Positions 12,972 to 29,313 of a DNA stretch of 64,000 nt are shown one piece after another. Origin of the DNA: Candidatus Nitrosymbiomonas proteolyticus (GTDB lineage: Bacteria > Armatimonadota > Fimbriimonadia > Fimbriimonadales > Fimbriimonadaceae); assembly GCA_017347465.1 (NCBI GenBank), contig AP021858.1, forward strand, positions 2,684,472-2,748,471. Direction: 5' to 3'. The notes under the pieces were generated by a model. That model ran no database searches and was not told where the DNA came from. It saw only the letters and a program-made list of their open reading frames with translations. Made by a program: the position numbers and the translations under genes. The number at the start of each line of letters is the position of its first letter. The stretch's first letter is position 1.

Positions 12972-13574
12972 ATGAAGAGAGATATTTCGAGAGCATGTTT
13001 GACGCTAGGCCTTGCCAGCACTTGGGGAGTCGGTGCCGCGACGGAGTTCTATGGGACGGTCGAAAACGTCACGACACAAGGGCCTATGGCCTTTCTCTAC
13101 GCTTCAGGAGTGTCGAGCCCGCACGCTGCCACCGGCATGATCAATCTGAACACAAGCACTTCGTTCTTTCCGGCGCCCGGACCTACGCCGTTCTTCGCCG
13201 AGTTCATCGTCGCCGAAGAGAATGGCGTTTGGGGAACGATCGGCTGCATCGACGTGGATCGCGTTTCTTTAGGCGTTAGCGCCGACGACGTCGGTTCCAT
13301 GCTGGGCCAGTCTTGGGAATCCCTGTTCCCCGACTTCTCTGAAGCATCGATTGCGACTGCCGTAATCAATGGCGACTTTACGACGCTCTCCCAGTTCGCC
13401 GACTACTACCCTTGGTACTTCGACACCCCTGAAGCCCTTGGGGCACAAGCGACCCTCGTGGACTTCTCGAACGGGACGTTTGGAGGCTACGTTACGCTCG
13501 TTCCCGAACCGACGACGATGGTTGCGCTGGCCACAAGTTCGATCGTACTCTTGCTTCGGCGCAGGCGTTCGTAA
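12972..13574 (+). CDS. PEP-CTERM sorted secreted protein (unknown function)
   Basis: Small exported protein. Signal peptide at residues 1-22, an aromatic-rich middle without recognised domain, and a C-terminal sorting signal VPEPTTMVALATSSIVLLLRRRRS: the PEP motif, a hydrophobic helix, then an arginine cluster recognised by an exosortase. AAGGAGACCCT precedes the ATG. One of five such proteins in the window, each with a different body. A GC-rich palindrome follows its stop. Confidence 0.8.
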   Translation: MKRDISRACLTLGLASTWGVGAATEFYGTVENVTTQGPMAFLYASGVSSPHAATGMINLNTSTSFFPAPGPTPFFAEFIVAEENGVWGTIGCIDVDRVSLGVSADDVGSMLGQSWESLFPDFSEASIATAVINGDFTTLSQFADYYPWYFDTPEALGAQATLVDFSNGTFGGYVTLVPEPTTMVALATSSIVLLLRRRRS

Positions 13575-14952: not shown

Positions 14953-15492
14953 TTACTTCCGGCGACGCCGCAAGAACGCCACGCTACCCAATGCAAGCGC
15001 CGCCATCGACGTTGGTTCGGGAACCGCGTTGACGTTCAACTTGACGATCGTGTCGGGCGTGAACGAAAGATCCATCCAGTCCACTTGGATCTCAGAGCCC
15101 GTGAAGCTAACCCGGCTCGAATTGAAGCCCACCATGTTGGTCGAAGCGTCGATCGTCACCGAACTAAACGCGGGCCCCGAGACCATGCGCATGGCGATGC
15201 CATTGTAAATGGTCGGCGACAGGGATAGGCTCGAAGTACTCCAAGTCGATGTGGCCATGTAGTCGAACGTGATCGACGTGTCGTCCACATCGATGTCGAA
15301 ATAGCCCGCGAAGTTGCCCTCGACGCCAGGCCCCACCACAAAATTCGTTTGAGAGTTGTAGGCTCCGCCATAGGCGTAGTACTGCCAACCCATGGTCGAA
15401 CCGTCCAGGCCAGCATAGGCAGAAGTCGGGGCAAAGAGCGCAGTTGCTGCAAGCGCGAACGGCATTGCCCGCGAAATTGTCTTGATGTTCAT
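14953..15492 (-). CDS. PEP-CTERM sorted secreted protein (unknown function)
   Basis: A 179-residue exported protein. MNIKTISRAMPFALAATALF begins a clear signal peptide ending near AYA-GLD, the body is beta-rich and Ser/Thr-rich, and the C-terminus AVPEPTSMAALALGSVAFLR then RRRK is a PEP-CTERM signal. The ATG at 15492 with AAAGGAG upstream is preferred; the frame is open to 15660, but the added residues show no signal-peptide character. The adjacent Rhs fragment starts in its upstream region, which may mean an insertion or rearrangement broke the Rhs gene there. Confidence 0.8.
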   Translation of the reverse strand: MNIKTISRAMPFALAATALFAPTSAYAGLDGSTMGWQYYAYGGAYNSQTNFVVGPGVEGNFAGYFDIDVDDTSITFDYMATSTWSTSSLSLSPTIYNGIAMRMVSGPAFSSVTIDASTNMVGFNSSRVSFTGSEIQVDWMDLSFTPDTIVKLNVNAVPEPTSMAALALGSVAFLRRRRK

Positions 15493-15550
15493 GTTGATAA
15501 CTCCTTTGAAGTGAGGTTCGAGATGGGAGTCCCGAACGCCAGAAAACCAT

Positions 15551-17119
15551 GTGCAAAGTACTGCAGTTCTCGCCAAACCACCCTCGATGGCAAGAAAAGA
15601 CCGCAAAAATGCGGGGTGGTCACACCCCCAGTACCAATACGACCCCGCGGGCCGCATCACCAGCCTCGCTTACGCCTGGCAGACCTACAATTCCGGCTAC
15701 ACGGGTACCCCGATCTTGGGCCAAGAGTATGCCTACCACGCCACCAAGAGGCTCCGCACCGCCGCCAGCTTCTCCAACAACCCCGATTGGGACGGCGACC
15801 TCGACCTCATTCGCACCGAGACCTACGCCTATGACCCCGACCTCGACTACCTCACCGAAGTCGACTACAACGACGGCCTCGCCAACGAGGTCCAGACCTG
15901 GACCTACGACGCGGCCGGCAACCGCGCTACCGACTCTGTCCAAGGCTCGGGGTGGAGCTATGACAATTTGAATAGGATGACCGCGAGTCCGGGGTACAGT
16001 TATCTGCACGACATTCTCGGAAACAGAACTTGGAGGAACTTTGGATCGTCTGGAGTTCAGAGGTATCAATGGGACGCCTTGAACCGGGCGACTTCGGTCG
16101 TGGGTGAGGCTTATGGGGCTCGGTATGTGTATCGCGCCGACGGAATGCGGGTCGAAAAGGTCGAAGGGCTGACGCTTAGCTGGGTGCCGCCTGGCGAAGA
16201 AGAGGTGAGCGGGCACTATGACGAGAACCTGGCCGAGAACCTGCCGACGAGCCGGTACTATTACGACGGGCAGATGAGGGTGGAAGACGACTACACCGTG
16301 GAGGGGCAGTACGAGCCAGTGGTGACCGTGATGCGGTACGGCATCGGGGCGCGGGGGATCGACTTTCTGGACAAGCGCGTCGACGATGGCCCTGAGACAA
16401 AGGGCTACCCGATCTACGACGGCCACGGCAACATGATCGCCACGCTCGGGCAAACCCAGGGCTCCCCCTACTATTCCCTTGCTGACCTCCGCTCCTATGA
16501 CGTCTGGGGCGCGGTGAGGTCGGGCTCGACAACCGGCGACCCGAAGCAGCGGTATTGCGCCAACCTGGGGCATGTTCAGGACGACGAGTCTGGCCTGATT
16601 TACATGAGGGCGAGGTACTACGAGCCGTGGACGGGGAGGTTTCTCTCTGAGGATCCGAAGAACCATGGGTGGAATTGGTATTCGTACGCCAACTGCAATC
16701 CAGTTACGTTTGTCGATTCAACCGGCCAAGCAGCTTTTCTGGCGAGCCTCCTTGTAATCCTGATTGAAGTCATCATAGCCGCCGCCGTAGAGATAGGATT
16801 CCAACTTGCCTCAGGTAGATCGCTTGATAACCTGGATTGGGCAAGCGTTGGAGTGGCCGCAGGTTTTGGACTAATTGGGGGCGTGTACGGTCACTTCGTT
16901 CGGAGGGCCTTCTATATGTTGAAGACTCCCCTTCATCGAAAAGCTTGGGTCGAGGGCGACTTCGCCACTTACTTCGTGAAGATGATCGGAATCGGCACCA
17001 GTACCTCGCTTAAGCGGAACCACTTTGCGCCCTTGTGGAGGGCGATGATTTTTGGGGGCGCTGGCCATATCGCAATGGAGCTGTATGGCATGTATCTTCT
17101 TGCACACATGGAGGAGTAA
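15551..17119 (+). CDS. Rhs core protein, 5'-truncated, with hydrophobic C-terminal effector candidate (copy A)
   Basis: Rhs/YD-repeat protein that normally forms a shell around a C-terminal toxin. YD-type repeats are visible: YQYDPAGRI, WTYDAAGNR, WSYDNLNRM, YQWDALNRA (residues 28-185). The conserved core end DESGLIYMRARYYEPW-GRFLSEDP lies at about 345-370. The variable C-terminus after VDSTGQ holds two or three membrane segments (AAFLASLLVILIEVIIAAA and a glycine-rich one), suggesting a membrane-acting toxin. The large N-terminal part of an Rhs protein is missing and there is no signal peptide. The start is GTG 15551 or ATG 15587. Probably a displaced module. Confidence 0.8.
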   Translation: MQSTAVLAKPPSMARKDRKNAGWSHPQYQYDPAGRITSLAYAWQTYNSGYTGTPILGQEYAYHATKRLRTAASFSNNPDWDGDLDLIRTETYAYDPDLDYLTEVDYNDGLANEVQTWTYDAAGNRATDSVQGSGWSYDNLNRMTASPGYSYLHDILGNRTWRNFGSSGVQRYQWDALNRATSVVGEAYGARYVYRADGMRVEKVEGLTLSWVPPGEEEVSGHYDENLAENLPTSRYYYDGQMRVEDDYTVEGQYEPVVTVMRYGIGARGIDFLDKRVDDGPETKGYPIYDGHGNMIATLGQTQGSPYYSLADLRSYDVWGAVRSGSTTGDPKQRYCANLGHVQDDESGLIYMRARYYEPWTGRFLSEDPKNHGWNWYSYANCNPVTFVDSTGQAAFLASLLVILIEVIIAAAVEIGFQLASGRSLDNLDWASVGVAAGFGLIGGVYGHFVRRAFYMLKTPLHRKAWVEGDFATYFVKMIGIGTSTSLKRNHFAPLWRAMIFGGAGHIAMELYGMYLLAHMEE

Positions 17120-17395
17120 TTGCTTTCGCTGGTGCTATTGTTTTTAATCAGCGTTTTGACGCAGATCTATTCTCGGAGTTACATGCAAAGAATGCACCGT
17201 AGGCTCGGTTTGGCAATTCGAATAACGTCCCAACTCTGGATCGCATCATGCTTAGTATTGATGGTCGGGATGATTTGTCTACCTTTTTATGCTGTCGGTG
17301 CGTTCTGGTGTTTTGCAGTCGCCAGTGTTGGCAACATCGCCCTTGTGCTCGCAGTAGTAGAGTTCCGCGGACTGAGCGAAGATGACCAATTATAG
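17120..17395 (+). CDS. Small membrane protein, candidate immunity protein for Rhs copy A
   Basis: A 91-residue protein with three predicted membrane segments (LSLVLLFLISVLTQIYS; IASCLVLMVGMICLPFYAVG; FWCFAVASVGNIALVLAVV). It begins at a TTG directly after the Rhs copy A stop with GGAGGA just before, so it is coupled. A small membrane protein immediately after an Rhs C-terminus is the usual place of the cognate immunity gene, and a membrane location suits a membrane-active toxin. No family recognised. The stretch looks less GC-rich than its surroundings. Confidence 0.6.
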   Translation: MLSLVLLFLISVLTQIYSRSYMQRMHRRLGLAIRITSQLWIASCLVLMVGMICLPFYAVGAFWCFAVASVGNIALVLAVVEFRGLSEDDQL

Positions 17396-17407
17396 GGTGA
17401 CTGTCAT

Positions 17408-18448
17408 ATGGATGCGGAATGCAATCCGGCAACTCTAAGGGTTCTGCGTAACATAGGTAATGGCTTTTCCAGCCAGGATTCTTTCGAGGCGATGAGGACC
17501 GAAAAGGTCGAAGGGTTGACGGTGACCGGGGTGCCTCCTCCCGGCTTCCCGTCGCTGATTTTGGGGTATTACGACTACAACGAGGACCAGAACTACCCGA
17601 CAACGCGCTACTATTATGACGGGCAGATGATGGTCGAAGACGATTTCACGACGGAGCTCAGTGAGACAGCGCAGGTGACGGTCATGCGTTATGGGATCGG
17701 GGCCCGCGGCATCGACTTTTTGACCAAAAGAGTGGATGCGGGGGAGGAGAACCGGGGCTTTCCGTTGTATGATGGACATGGAAACATGATCGCGACGCTG
17801 GGCCGCTCGGAGAACTCGCCTTACTTTGGGGTTGCGGACCTGCGGTCGTATGATGTTTGGGGCGCGGTGAGGTCTGGCTCCACCACCGGCGACCCGAAGC
17901 AGCGGTATTGCGCTAACCTGGGGCATGTCCAGGATGACGAATCCGGCCTGATCTACATGCGGGCGAGGTACTACGAGCCGTGGAGTGGGAGGTTCATCTC
18001 TGAGGATACTGCTGGCGATGGTGTCAACTGGTATGTCTATGCAGGGTGCGACCCGATACTGAATGTCGATTCCTCTGGGAATGAGAGCCAGTGGAGTGGC
18101 GCGTTTGTTTGGCTTCGTGACCTACTCAAGGGTTACGGCGAGCTGGGAAGGTATGCATACGACGTCATCGTCACGCTTTCCATCGGAGCAATGGGCTGCC
18201 TTACGAAGGCAATGCTATCCGTTTCAACGCTCCTCATTCGGAAGGGCAATAAGGAAGCACTTTGGGGGCTGGCCATCCTTGGGATTGTCCGTGCGGGAGG
18301 GCCAGCGGCGGGTCCCGGAGCCCTTCTTGCGAGGAAGCATCTCACGCAAGGCATCATGGCAATCGCACTTGGTTGGATGCTTCGAATTGCGACGGTTCTT
18401 CTTGACGTGTTGTTCGCTAACGATATTGTCGATGTAGGGGACGAATGA
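17408..18448 (+). CDS. Orphan Rhs core plus second C-terminal effector candidate (copy B)
   Basis: Core homology starts near 17491 (MRTEKVEGLTV) and ends at ARYYEPWSGRFISEDTAGDG, with long identical stretches to copy A, for example GAVRSGSTTGDPKQRYCANL. The C-terminus after VDSSGN differs completely from copy A and is also hydrophobic, with several putative membrane segments (IVTLSIGAMGCLTKAMLS; ALGWMLRIATVLLDVLF). Residues 1-27 lie before the homology and may be non-native. The protein lacks nearly the whole YD shell, matching an orphan Rhs tip that can be swapped by recombination onto a complete Rhs gene elsewhere. Confidence 0.75.
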   Translation: MDAECNPATLRVLRNIGNGFSSQDSFEAMRTEKVEGLTVTGVPPPGFPSLILGYYDYNEDQNYPTTRYYYDGQMMVEDDFTTELSETAQVTVMRYGIGARGIDFLTKRVDAGEENRGFPLYDGHGNMIATLGRSENSPYFGVADLRSYDVWGAVRSGSTTGDPKQRYCANLGHVQDDESGLIYMRARYYEPWSGRFISEDTAGDGVNWYVYAGCDPILNVDSSGNESQWSGAFVWLRDLLKGYGELGRYAYDVIVTLSIGAMGCLTKAMLSVSTLLIRKGNKEALWGLAILGIVRAGGPAAGPGALLARKHLTQGIMAIALGWMLRIATVLLDVLFANDIVDVGDE

Positions 18449-18452
18449 TATA

Positions 18453-18959
18453 GTGCGTACATCGAGAACAGCCGCAATTGCCGTGATCCGAAGTTACTGC
18501 GGGCTCCTGATCGACATCGTTGCCCTAAACTATGTCATGGTCCCGATGACTTGGTTAATTGGCCTGGTTGCGATGATAGTTGGGTCCTCTGTTACCTTAC
18601 ACCTTACTGTCGACAATTGGCTCGTCATTTTGCCTCGTTCGATGCTAATGGCGTTCCTGCTCTATTCCCTTTCCCTTGCGGCGTATAGGGCTATCGTTCG
18701 AAATAGCACAGCAAGTACTATTTGCCATTGGAGCAGACTTTCTCTAAGGCGGCTGCTAATGTGTTTTGCCTGTAGTGCGCTAGGCGTGTCCATTTACTGC
18801 ACGTTTCCACCAAGCAGATTTCCGTCCTTTTCAGAATCTGTATCTTTCGAAGTGATGCGGAGGATTGGTGGCTTATGTATGGCAGTTGTAATGGTCTGGT
18901 CGCGTCGGACTTTCGATCAGCGAGGTGCTGGTCAGGTTCGAGGTGAGCGGGCACTATGA
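18453..18959 (+). CDS. Membrane protein, candidate immunity protein for Rhs copy B, 3' end fused to next Rhs copy
   Basis: A 168-residue protein starting GTG five bases after copy B. It has about four membrane segments (VIRSYCGLLIDIVALNYVMV; LIGLVAMIVGSSVTLHLTV; MLMAFLLYSLSLAAYRAIV; LLMCFACSALGVSIY). The last residues GAGQVRGERAL are encoded by sequence belonging to Rhs copy C in another frame, so the native 3' end was probably lost when copy C joined. It may still work, as the membrane core is intact. Assigned by position only. Confidence 0.5.
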   Translation: MRTSRTAAIAVIRSYCGLLIDIVALNYVMVPMTWLIGLVAMIVGSSVTLHLTVDNWLVILPRSMLMAFLLYSLSLAAYRAIVRNSTASTICHWSRLSLRRLLMCFACSALGVSIYCTFPPSRFPSFSESVSFEVMRRIGGLCMAVVMVWSRRTFDQRGAGQVRGERAL

Positions 18960-19251
18960 CGAGAACCTGGCCGAGAACCTGCCGACGAGCCGGTATTATT
19001 ACGACGGGCAGATGATGGTGGAAGACGACTACACCGTGGAGGGGCAGAACGAACCTGTGGTGACCGTGATGCGGTATGGCATCGGCGCGCGGGGGATCGA
19101 CTTTCTCGCCAAATCGGTCGACGGCGGGGCGGAAACTGTGGGCTTTCCGTTGTATGATGGACATGGAAACATGATCGCGACGCTTGGCCGCTCGGAGAAC
19201 TCGCCTTACTTTGGGCTTGCGGACCCCCGGTCGTACGATGTCTGCGAGTGA
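18925..19251 (+). pseudogene. Rhs core fragment (copy C)
   Basis: From about 18939 the sequence repeats copy A almost base for base (VSGHYDENLAENLPTSRYYY) and then continues like copy B (GFPLYDGHGNMIATLGRSEN), so it is a mosaic of the two. It stops at SYDVCE, before the DPKQRY...GRF core end, and has no C-terminal effector. No ribosome binding site or native start is visible. A dead remnant, but long enough to act as a homology donor for recombination between Rhs copies. Confidence 0.7.
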
Positions 19252-19430
19252 TCGCCGGCGAGTTCCTGGCCTGCTAACCTCGTGACGTTCATGACGGGCG
19301 CCACTTCGGCAGCTCCTTCGTTGTCGCTCCCGCTTTACGCTGTCCCAAGTCTGAAGCGACCCGCACATCCCAGATTCAGCACTAGCGGGCGCGGCATCCA
19401 GTAGACTAGCGCTTTTGGAGGGCTACCCTC

Positions 19431-20108
19431 GTGTACGAATGGATTCGTCAACTGTACGCCGACCCGAACATGGCGCGGATGGGCCACGCCCAGAGCATCG
19501 AGGATCAGAATCTTGGTTCTGGATGGATCTACTATGGACTTGCTAGAGCGCTGCGACCCTCGACGGCGGTCGTGATTGGCTCCTTCAGGGGCTTTGTTCC
19601 TCTCGTGCTTGGGAAGGCTCTGCAGGACAACGGTAGGGGTGACGTGGTCTTCATCGACCCTTCGCTGGTGGACGACTTTTGGCTGTCGCCCCCTCGCGTG
19701 CGGCGCCACTTCAAGAACTACGGAATCACGAACGTCCGTCACTACTGCTGCACCACGCAGGAGTTCGTGACGACCGAAGGGTACCGAGCCCTCGATGAAG
19801 TCGGGTTGCTCTTTGTGGACGGGTACCACACGGAAGAACAGGCGCAGTTCGATTTCGCTGCGTTTGAGCCCAAGCTCCGATCCGATGCGCTCGTGCTCTT
19901 TCACGACAGCGTTCGCGAGCGCCAGTCGAGCATTTACGGCGAGAATCGCGCTTACACGCACAGTGTTTGTAGGTTCATGGAGTCCCTCCGCCTGGACCCC
20001 GCCTACCAGGTGCTGAGCCTATGCCTGGGAGACGGCCTGACCGTCGTTTCGCGGGCGCAGCATCATCCCGACCCCAGACAGGACCTCATTGAGGCAACGA
20101 GACGGTGA
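19431..20108 (+). CDS. SAM-dependent class I methyltransferase-like protein
   Basis: A 225-residue Rossmann protein of the Methyltransf_24 kind: STAVVIGSFRGFVPLVLGKAL (about 44-64) is the SAM loop region, DVVFIDPSLVDDFW holds the acidic residue after beta 2, and LLFVDGYHTEEQAQFDF (about 125-141) with ALVLFHDSVRE is typical of this group, which includes cephalosporin-hydroxylase-like and sugar O-methyltransferases. Starts GTG 19431 with GGAGG upstream. First of three coupled genes with a glycosyltransferase-like and an ATP-grasp protein. Substrate unknown. Confidence 0.7.
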   Translation: MYEWIRQLYADPNMARMGHAQSIEDQNLGSGWIYYGLARALRPSTAVVIGSFRGFVPLVLGKALQDNGRGDVVFIDPSLVDDFWLSPPRVRRHFKNYGITNVRHYCCTTQEFVTTEGYRALDEVGLLFVDGYHTEEQAQFDFAAFEPKLRSDALVLFHDSVRERQSSIYGENRAYTHSVCRFMESLRLDPAYQVLSLCLGDGLTVVSRAQHHPDPRQDLIEATRR

Positions 20109-21061
20109 GCACGGCTCGAGACGCTCAGAGTGATTTGTGGGCGATCACCTGCCTCTTTGGAGTTTCATCGCCACGTCGCATCGAGAATTACTGGGAGTTT
20201 CGCAACGCGTTGCGCCTTCCCCTCGTGACTGTGGAACTCTCCTTCGGCGAACCGTTCGCTCTGGACGCAAGGGCATCGGAGGTGCTCGTTCAACTTCAGG
20301 GGGGAGACGTCATGTGGCAAAAGGAGCGCTTGCTTTCGCTGGCGCTTGCGCGTCTTCCTGATTGCTGCACAAAGGTCGTCTGGTGCGACGCAGATATAGT
20401 CGCTCCCGACCCTTCATGGCCTCTCGCGATCGCCAACGCGCTCGAGGATGCGACTTTGGTACAGGGGTTCGCCGAAGTCCTGCACTTGCCCCCACGCATC
20501 GCGCTTCCGGCAAGCGAGGACATACAATGGCATCCTTCGACAATGTTCGCTCTTTCGTGCGGGGGGACAGTCGCTGAGACCCTTGATTCTGCGCTCAACC
20601 GCACGGGCACGTCGCCCTGCTCGGGACACGTCTGGGCAGCGCGGCGCGATGTGGTCGAACGCTGCGGGTTGTACGATGGTTGCATCATAGGAGGAGGCGA
20701 CACTGCAGTCGTCAGTGCGGCCCTTGGACATCCGGAAGTCGCGATTGAGCTCCACACAATGGGGGAGGCGCAGGCTCAGCGGTACGCTTTGTGGGCGCAG
20801 AGGTTCTACGCAGAGACCCGCGGTCAGATCACCTTCGTTCCCCAGAAGATTCACCATCTGTGGCATGGAAGTATGGAAAGCCGCAGAGCGAGGCAGCGTC
20901 ATCGGGGCTTAAGCGCCCTCGGATTCGATCCTTACAGCGACCTAAGGTTGTCTCCAAGGGGCGTTTGGCAATGGAGTTCCGAGAGGCCCGAACTTCACCG
21001 GTACCTAAGGGAGTACTTCGAGTCTCGCGGCGGGGCCGAAAGAGAGGGGGTGACCTCTTGA
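20105..21061 (+). CDS. GT-A glycosyltransferase-like protein with DxD motif
   Basis: A 318-residue protein coupled by GTGA to the methyltransferase. LWAITCLFGVSSPRRIENYW near the start and CTKVVWCDADIVAPDPSW (about 88-105) with a metal-type DAD motif resemble nucleotide-sugar glycosyltransferases that begin with a news-like WAITCLF stretch. GHVWAARRDVVERCGLYDG and GGGDTAVVSAALGH (about 175-215) fit the acceptor-side region of GT-A enzymes. FVPQKIHHLWHG later is also common in these. No signal peptide or membrane helix. The sugar is unknown. Confidence 0.65.
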   Translation: MSTARDAQSDLWAITCLFGVSSPRRIENYWEFRNALRLPLVTVELSFGEPFALDARASEVLVQLQGGDVMWQKERLLSLALARLPDCCTKVVWCDADIVAPDPSWPLAIANALEDATLVQGFAEVLHLPPRIALPASEDIQWHPSTMFALSCGGTVAETLDSALNRTGTSPCSGHVWAARRDVVERCGLYDGCIIGGGDTAVVSAALGHPEVAIELHTMGEAQAQRYALWAQRFYAETRGQITFVPQKIHHLWHGSMESRRARQRHRGLSALGFDPYSDLRLSPRGVWQWSSERPELHRYLREYFESRGGAEREGVTS

Positions 21062-28445: not shown

Positions 28446-28740
28446 AGCGCCCCGGTCTGACTCGATGAGCGGACCTGGTCCGAGAGGAAGCTCAATTCTC
28501 TGCGGGCCCTGCGATTCAGTAGAGGACTTCCGCTAAGGCGGGGCAGCCCTGCGCGTCAGAAGCGGCTTGACATTCGCGAAGGATGTTGAGAGTTGCGGCC
28601 CAACAGGCCGCCTCTGTATTGGGGGCTGGTTTCCACAAGGGCGGTGCCCTTCGCTCTAACATCTCGACCCCGTCGGGCCTGAGGTTCGCGTTTCCGAAGG
28701 CGGAACCTGCGCGATTCGGGGTGTGCTCTTCGAGTCCGAC

Positions 28741-29313
28741 CAGGCTCCCCGGGGCCGGCCCCTCATCCCCTTGGTCCCCTTCTCCCCCAGAGGGGCGAAG
28801 GGGAAGTCTTGTGCCGCGGCGGCAGGCGGAGAAGTGGGTTCGAGTCCGGGGCTGCTCCGGGGGTCACGCGCGGGTTCCCCGGGGCCGGCCCCTCATCCCC
28901 TTGGTCCCCTTCTCCCCCAGAGGGGCGAAGGGGAAGTCTTGTGCCGCGGCAACAGGCGGAGAAGTGGGTTCGATCCCGGGGCTGCTCTGGGGGTCAGGCG
29001 CGGGCTCCCCGGGACTGGCCCCTCATCCCCTTGGTCCCCTTCTCCCCCAGAGGGGCGAAGGGGAAGTCTTGTGTCGCGGCGGCAGGCGGAGAAGTGGGTT
29101 CGATCCCGGGGCTGCTCTGGAGGTCAGACACGAGTTCCCGGGACCGGCCCCTCATCCCCTTGGTCCCCTTCTCGGGGAAGTCTTGTGCCGCGGCAACAGG
29201 CGGAGAAGTGGGTTCGATCCCGGGGCTGCTCTGGGGGTCAGGCGCGGGCTCCCCGGGACCGGCCCCTCATCCCCTTGGTCCCCTTCTCCCCCAGAGGGGC
29301 GAAGGGGAGACCT
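28741..29313. repeat. 130-bp tandem array of REP-like hairpin elements (five copies)
   Basis: Five copies of a motif CCTCATCCCCTTGGTCCCCT plus hairpin start at 28761, 28891, 29021, 29150 and 29265, giving periods of 130, 130, 129 and 115. Each full copy ends in an imperfect hairpin, CCCCTTC-T-CCCC / CAGA / GGGG-C-GAAGGGG; copy four lost its right half. The spacers between hairpins are also repeated (CTTGTGCCGCGG, GGCGGAGAAGTGGGTTCGA). Long open frames run through the array only because the unit is GC-rich. The related element recurs inside ubiD at 46.7 kb. Confidence 0.85.

Follow-up and report, generated by a model that had tools for sequence, protein, structure and literature searches.

Rhs tips are usually treated as a mixed set of toxins, most of them enzymes, carried by a core that is interchangeable. 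We describe here an array of displaced Rhs tips in a 64,000-nt stretch of DNA from Candidatus Nitrosymbiomonas proteolyticus (Fimbriimonadaceae, Armatimonadota; contig AP021858.1, positions 2,684,472 to 2,748,471; the whole stretch is called the window, and its genome, a single contig of 2.81 Mb, G000). Positions 15551 to 19251 of the window hold two complete Rhs tip cassettes, A and B, each with a downstream open reading frame (ORF), I1 and I2, respectively, and a truncated core remnant, C. The closest described systems, cited here from parts of the respective papers, are the orphan rhs-CT/rhsI modules (Poole et al. 2011, PMC3150448), the Rhs protein Tse5 (PMC10684867), the ionophore toxins of contact-dependent inhibition (CDI; Halvorsen et al. 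2024, PMC11630599), and orphan immunity genes of the type VI secretion system (T6SS; PMC5361080, PMC10539506).

The array resembles the orphan rhs-CT/rhsI modules in its build, i.e., a core fragment with a junction motif, a variable C-terminus, and a small downstream ORF, and also in that its content varies among related strains, for which the cited part of that paper proposes recombination in conserved core DNA. However, the modules described there lie beside a full-length rhs and are nuclease-like, whereas the C-termini here are hydrophobic and searches in the genus revealed no parent with a matching core. Tse5 likewise has an Rhs core from which autocleavage at an Asp pair releases a membrane-inserting C-terminus (approximately 149 residues), although no sequence similarity was found between that C-terminus and those studied here. 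Tse5 is delivered by the T6SS, whereas the T6SS sheath gene (PF05943, VipB/TssC) was detected in none of seven genomes (E. coli control positive), and the full-length relatives of the array have signal-peptide-like starts. The CDI ionophores also form a large, diverse set of helical membrane toxins with fast-diverging, small hydrophobic immunity proteins; in the cited part of that work, however, they are delivered by CdiA/CdiB in E. coli rather than on Rhs cores, have a predicted five-helix domain plus a separate entry domain, compared with the four helices predicted for one group here, and are linked to a strict GxxxGxxxG zipper, which neither A nor B has. Finally, T6SS immunity genes are kept without their toxins, as seems to be the case here, but the present examples are Rhs-type islets that hold candidate membrane immunity genes, and the sample of genomes tested showed no T6SS. 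Nothing on Rhs in Armatimonadetes, Armatimonadota, or Fimbriimonad- was found in the open-access literature, to which the search was confined.

We favor, with a probability of about 0.62, the explanation that the array consists of displaced membrane-toxin/immunity cassettes which have outlived their delivery parent and are kept at least partly for immunity. What is new here is that displaced Rhs cassettes of a core type carrying membrane domains near-exclusively persist where the parent is missing.

Two complete tip cassettes and a core remnant

Five ORFs, all in the same direction, are flanked by an ABC transporter/PEP-CTERM pair on one side and a methyltransferase gene on the other, and include three tandem core copies spaced by approximately 1.35 kb. 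The ORF of tip A (15551 to 17119, 522 aa; this and all following array features are on the + strand) is a 5'-truncated Rhs core followed by a junction and a hydrophobic C-terminus. Its core part (15632 to 16642) is a homologue of the last third of the full-length Rhs parents from other genera, its junction spans 16643 to 16726, and C-terminus A (16727 to 17116, 130 aa) is, by hydropathy, a predicted membrane-inserting toxin domain. Tip B (17408 to 18448, 346 aa) comprises core (17485 to 17995), junction (17996 to 18079), and a hydrophobic C-terminus of 122 aa (18080 to 18445), for which hydropathy gave the same prediction. I1 (17120 to 17395, 91 aa) starts 0 bases past the stop of A, and I2 (18453 to 18959, 168 aa) 4 bases past the stop of B; both are multi-span membrane ORFs in a simple hydropathy scan and are predicted immunity proteins. 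The last codons of I2 run into the core DNA of remnant C (18925 to 19251), which lacks a toxin end.

Both tips scored above the cut-off of TIGR03696 (Rhs_assc_core), with E = 1.5e-20 for A (residues 316 to 393) and 2.8e-18 for B, while C, truncated before that part of the core, gave no match to this model. In the PDB, the relatives of the core were those of Rhs, TcC, and Tse5, with the matches lying chiefly at the core end. No full YD-repeat shell is present in A, B, or C, which all hold only the end of the core, A aligning from approximately residue 926 onward of a 1400-aa relative, and the ORFs were therefore filed as Rhs fragments (tips) rather than complete Rhs toxins. A and B had no Pfam match, and a PADLOC search of A, I1, B, and I2 was empty. 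A and B thus have the layout of a displaced tip array, with tandem core fragments, different C-termini, and a small ORF after each, while C is incomplete; the feature is a real displaced Rhs tip array, and chance is not an issue since the lineage recurs across the order.

An earlier note on this DNA, made from the letters and a list of ORFs, had described the tandem core copies, the missing shells, the small multi-span membrane ORF within five bases of each tip, and the displaced-tip layout, all of which we found as described. It had also called the core DNA of A and B nearly identical, and this did not hold: the cores were 75% identical over 519 nt, with 91% identity confined to the 126 nt just before the junction (16507 to 16632).

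The junction carries D4, D25, and G28, which were invariant in 120 of 120 aligned junction/C-terminus sequences, A and B included; in A, the codons of the Asp pair are at 16652 and 16715. The Rhs autoprotease motif reads DPXGX18DPXG, and in Tse5 its Asp pair frees the pore-forming end (PMC10684867, in the part cited). Based on position and on this literature, the junction pair is predicted to be the positional equivalent of the Rhs autoprotease pair.

The core type of the array carries hydrophobic C-termini

Tips were collected from the window and from the fetched loci, with exact duplicates counted once and tips whose ORF ran off the locus left out. The pool held 121 distinct tips with the core pattern of the array (window type), 22 with a second pattern, and 8 with neither, the types being assigned via short motifs rather than a tree. 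After C-termini shorter than 100 aa (7 of 121 and 1 of 22) and the 8 tips of neither pattern had been dropped, 114 window-type and 21 second-type C-termini remained, and those with a positive trimmed grand average of hydropathy (GRAVY) were counted as hydrophobic.

This was the case for 104 of the 114 window-type C-termini, compared with just one of the 21 second-type C-termini (p = 1.6e-12). Counting sequence clusters instead, which limits the influence of relatedness, gave 79 of 83 versus 1 of 15 (p = 1.3e-12). The second-type ends are soluble, with GIY-YIG, Tlde1-like, and YkuD-like domains, and the two types also differed in length (153 ± 10 versus 184 ± 20 residues, junction included). 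A transmembrane segment was predicted in the next ORF after 83 of 102 hydrophobic ends but only 3 of 10 other ends of the window type (p = 0.0013); for the second core type, the figure was 9 of 19. Moreover, 14 of the 16 window-type ORFs with at least 1000 residues upstream of the junction had a C-terminus with positive GRAVY, and hydrophobic ends therefore occupy the toxin slot of full-length proteins.

These counts support the proposal in the earlier note that the tips are membrane-rich rather than nuclease-like. As also stated there, the two C-termini of the array are hydrophobic and unrelated, with no similarity detectable between A and B. Each found only itself in 113 genomes of the order, and I1 and I2 had only weak matches elsewhere in them. 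Among 120 C-termini (the 114 of window type and 6 of the 8 tips with neither pattern), none matched a toxin family in Pfam or NCBIfam. A resemblance to non-toxic membrane families did not emerge either, the isolated matches among the 120 being few, weak, and mutually unrelated. Next genes co-varied with the C-termini: 6 of 9 pairs of similar next genes also had similar C-termini, among 6903 pairs (p = 3e-11).

Two candidate common denominators of the C-termini were set aside. They formed one alignable family only partly, with 24 cross-cluster profile matches at E < 1e-3 and 0 reversed decoys (HMMER), and the best profile matches of A (0.017) and B (0.012) fell in a range where decoys also occur. 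A GxxxGxxxG glycine zipper was weak as a common signature, being present in 26 of 110 hydrophobic C-termini versus 16.9 ± 3.5 in shuffles.

No matching parent in three genomes of the genus

Full-length window-type parents of approximately 1370 to 1515 aa exist in other genera, with DUF6531 and a YD region in the long proteins. A clear N-terminal hydrophobic segment, signal-peptide-like as judged from hydropathy and by eye rather than with a dedicated predictor, was seen in 15 of the 16 long window-type ORFs, the one from locus L127 having no clear start. The N-terminal 800 aa of such a parent from G032 were found in G032 and G023, two genomes of other genera, but not in G000, in G094 (labelled as the same species, and the nearest relative of G000), or in the congener G001, with all first-look candidates scored. 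Other relatives of G000 are labelled Fimbriimonadaceae or Armatimonadetes. An order-wide parent profile search, in which just 8 candidates were scored per genome in many genomes (8 of 21 in G000), was positive in 30 of 113 genomes, none of them of this genus; the core stretch was found in 76 of 113, including weaker matches to the second core type. The N-terminal two thirds of the parent appear to have been lost in this genus. Two further single-contig genomes carry window-type tips, and among the matches listed for them there were just two short parent fragments in G008 and no parent match in G033. In G032, a window-type tip array (G032:C1:2416000-2430000) lies approximately 2 Mb away from the full-length parent, and arrays therefore need not adjoin their parent.

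As a check, the earlier note had proposed looking for a full-length rhs with matching core DNA elsewhere in the genome, and the answer was split. G000 does have two full-length Rhs genes, with their own tip arrays and insertion sequences (IS), but they are of the second core type, which is only approximately 36 to 41% identical to the window core at the core end. These loci (G000:C1:1413000-1427000 and 2118000-2131500) encode parents of 1277 and 1302 aa and tips with GIY-YIG, Tlde1-like, and YkuD-like ends, and several near-identical IS3-like transposase pairs lie in or beside the arrays. It was also observed that the longest tips of two congeners (L094:3093 and L037:13398), at different genomic places, both start matching at residue 851 of the G032 parent, which suggests that they descend from one truncated ancestor or that breaks occur preferentially there.

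Since no parent was found for the window, immunity or storage is a likelier immediate role for the array than attack. A weak pointer in the same direction came from the start signals. No Shine-Dalgarno (SD)-like match precedes the listed start of tip A, whereas I1 has GGAGGAG directly before its TTG start, and SD-like matches of at least 5 bases were found for 25 of 100 next ORFs versus 7 of 73 tips (p = 0.01); tip B, though, has a 5-base SD-like match, and I2 has none of at least 5 bases.

Tips differ between strains, and immunity-like ORFs occur without toxins

Comparison with G094 delimited a strain-variable block at 15484 to 19126. The flanks were 94% identical up to 15484 and 96% identical from 19126 to 20200, and between them G094 has five different tips and a remnant, with core pieces 80 to 87% identical. 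The left edge of the block lies between 15484 and 15632, where similarity of the tip A core to the G094 array starts. The right edge is in the core of C near 19126, from where on C is common to G094, as expected for recombination through shared core. C is itself mosaic: of 100 informative sites, 53 of 59 before approximately 19108 and 8 of 41 after it were A-like (permutation p ~2e-4), the 5' half thus being A-like and the 3' half B-like, and C is therefore a recombinant. Two PEP-CTERM proteins are encoded near the array (12972 to 13574 and 14953 to 15492), the latter divergent from it and with its 5' side at the left edge of the variable block.

Approximately 55 kb upstream of tip A, an islet (G000:C1:2644263 onward) begins with a core scrap 98% identical to window positions 19103 to 19189, after which come the final 20-odd codons of a toxin end and then an intact 79-aa ORF (L035:4474-4713, locus L035:4264-5430). 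This ORF is identical at 58 of 79 positions to the predicted immunity protein of the first tip of G094 (dN 0.149, dS 0.67, 79 codons). The islet piece is absent from the syntenic G094 site, where the aligned flanks are 96.9% identical. The islet adjoins 177-bp and 127-bp tandem repeats. Reciprocally, an islet in G094 (L178:4600-7407) holds a core scrap and two small membrane ORFs of 97 and 116 aa, to which the repeat-rich G000 counterpart (window positions approximately 28478 to 29215) had no match. These two cases in two genomes suggest that immunity-like ORFs may persist once the toxin is gone.

These comparisons bear on the foremost alternative, that the array consists of silent Rhs cassettes decaying after loss of the parent, with no current role, the strain differences being due to deletions and old recombination. 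We regard this as unlikely, although several observations fit it: searches of three genomes of the genus yielded no full-length parent, remnant C is truncated and core scraps lie elsewhere, tip A lacks an initiation signal, and G094 and G001 each have a stop within a tip. However, the reading frames of tips A and B, I1, and I2 are uninterrupted along their full length, and dN/dS was 0.17 for the tip A core against the head tip of G094 and 0.13 to 0.36 for cores across 21 tip pairs. Furthermore, cassettes that differ wholly between strains with 94 to 96% identical flanks require gain or exchange and not deletion alone, and the toxin-less immunity-like ORF has stayed intact although almost nothing is left of its toxin.

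The nature of the hydrophobic C-termini

For the largest group of related C-termini (n = 19), a four-helix bundle was modelled with a predicted local distance difference test score (pLDDT) of 87.1 and a predicted template modelling score (pTM) of 0.77. C-terminus A, modelled from an alignment of lineage members, gave four long helices with low confidence (pLDDT 61.3) and was not used as proof. A Foldseek search with the four-helix model returned no match at E ≤ 0.001, the best rows being unrelated helical bundles.

It appears improbable that the C-termini are not pores or ionophores but membrane-embedded enzymes, such as those of the lipocone type. Four-helix membrane or membrane-linked domains are known as polymorphic-toxin tips in the lipocone superfamily (PMC12419801, in the part cited), and the four helices modelled for the largest group here would agree with this. 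An enzyme should, however, keep polar active-site residues, and the 19-member alignment had no position at which any residue, polar or not, was invariant or nearly so; nor was any Pfam or NCBIfam enzyme family common to the 120 C-termini, the lipocone family itself not having been modelled directly. Equally improbable is that the C-termini serve as anchors in the membrane or as surface modules that vary, with the next gene as assembly partner, since, although they are nearly uniformly hydrophobic, lack a recognisable toxin family, and are carried on proteins with signal-peptide-like starts, an anchor would need neither replacement between strains nor 83 sequence clusters, the conserved Asp pair predicts a C-terminus that is cut off rather than kept, and the toxin-less copy of a partner gene fits immunity and not assembly.

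Discussion

The favored explanation, i.e., displaced membrane-toxin/immunity cassettes kept at least partly for immunity, could work as follows. A secreted Rhs parent with a signal-peptide-like start, of a lineage seen mainly in Armatimonadota, would encapsulate the C-terminal domain in its shell, and cleavage at the Asp pair would free this domain of approximately 125 to 150 residues. By analogy with Tse5 and the CDI ionophores, the freed domain may insert as a bundle of helices into the membrane of the target and depolarise it, while the small membrane protein encoded next would block the cognate tip in the producer's own membrane. Tips left as short ORFs would be reshuffled via recombination in shared core DNA; they differ completely between the two strains, and would be retained probably at least partly for their immunity genes and secondarily as toxin modules for an incoming parent. 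The earlier note had viewed the array as a store of effectors. That view is too simple because nothing on hand could deliver the tips directly, and the toxin-less islets point at least as much to a store of immunity.

Several observations weigh against this explanation. With the parent missing, it is not evident how tips A and B would be delivered. The C-termini split into many families, in which A and B are singletons without detectable relatives, and together with the poor model of A this means that the four helices modelled for other members of the lineage may not hold for A and B; fold searches, moreover, recognised no pore-former. The hydrophobic bias is incomplete, as 10 of 114 C-termini of the window core type were not hydrophobic and one of the five G094 tips is soluble, the other four being hydrophobic. 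Only 6 of 61 pairs of similar C-termini had detectably similar next genes, and several reversed-sequence decoys reached E < 1e-3 in pairwise searches, so that the weakest links are soft. Finally, the signs of purifying selection seen for the cores and the orphan immunity-like ORF may date from before the loss.

More broadly, and only as a tentative proposal that we hold at somewhat less than even odds, a mostly Armatimonadota-restricted Rhs lineage may have become specialised in dispensing four-helix membrane toxins of extreme diversity; some genera would have lost the weapon while arrays persist as a changing immunity archive against the membrane toxins of neighbors, with toxin-less islets as the end stage. 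Across the order, core type and toxin class go together, one type carrying almost only membrane domains and the other soluble ends, and this coupling opens to testing the question of whether the choice of deliverable toxins is limited by the shell or by the delivery route. Parentless arrays and toxin-less islets, in turn, bear on the question raised by the orphan modules in the cited part of PMC3150448, namely, whether such modules are spare weapons or shields.

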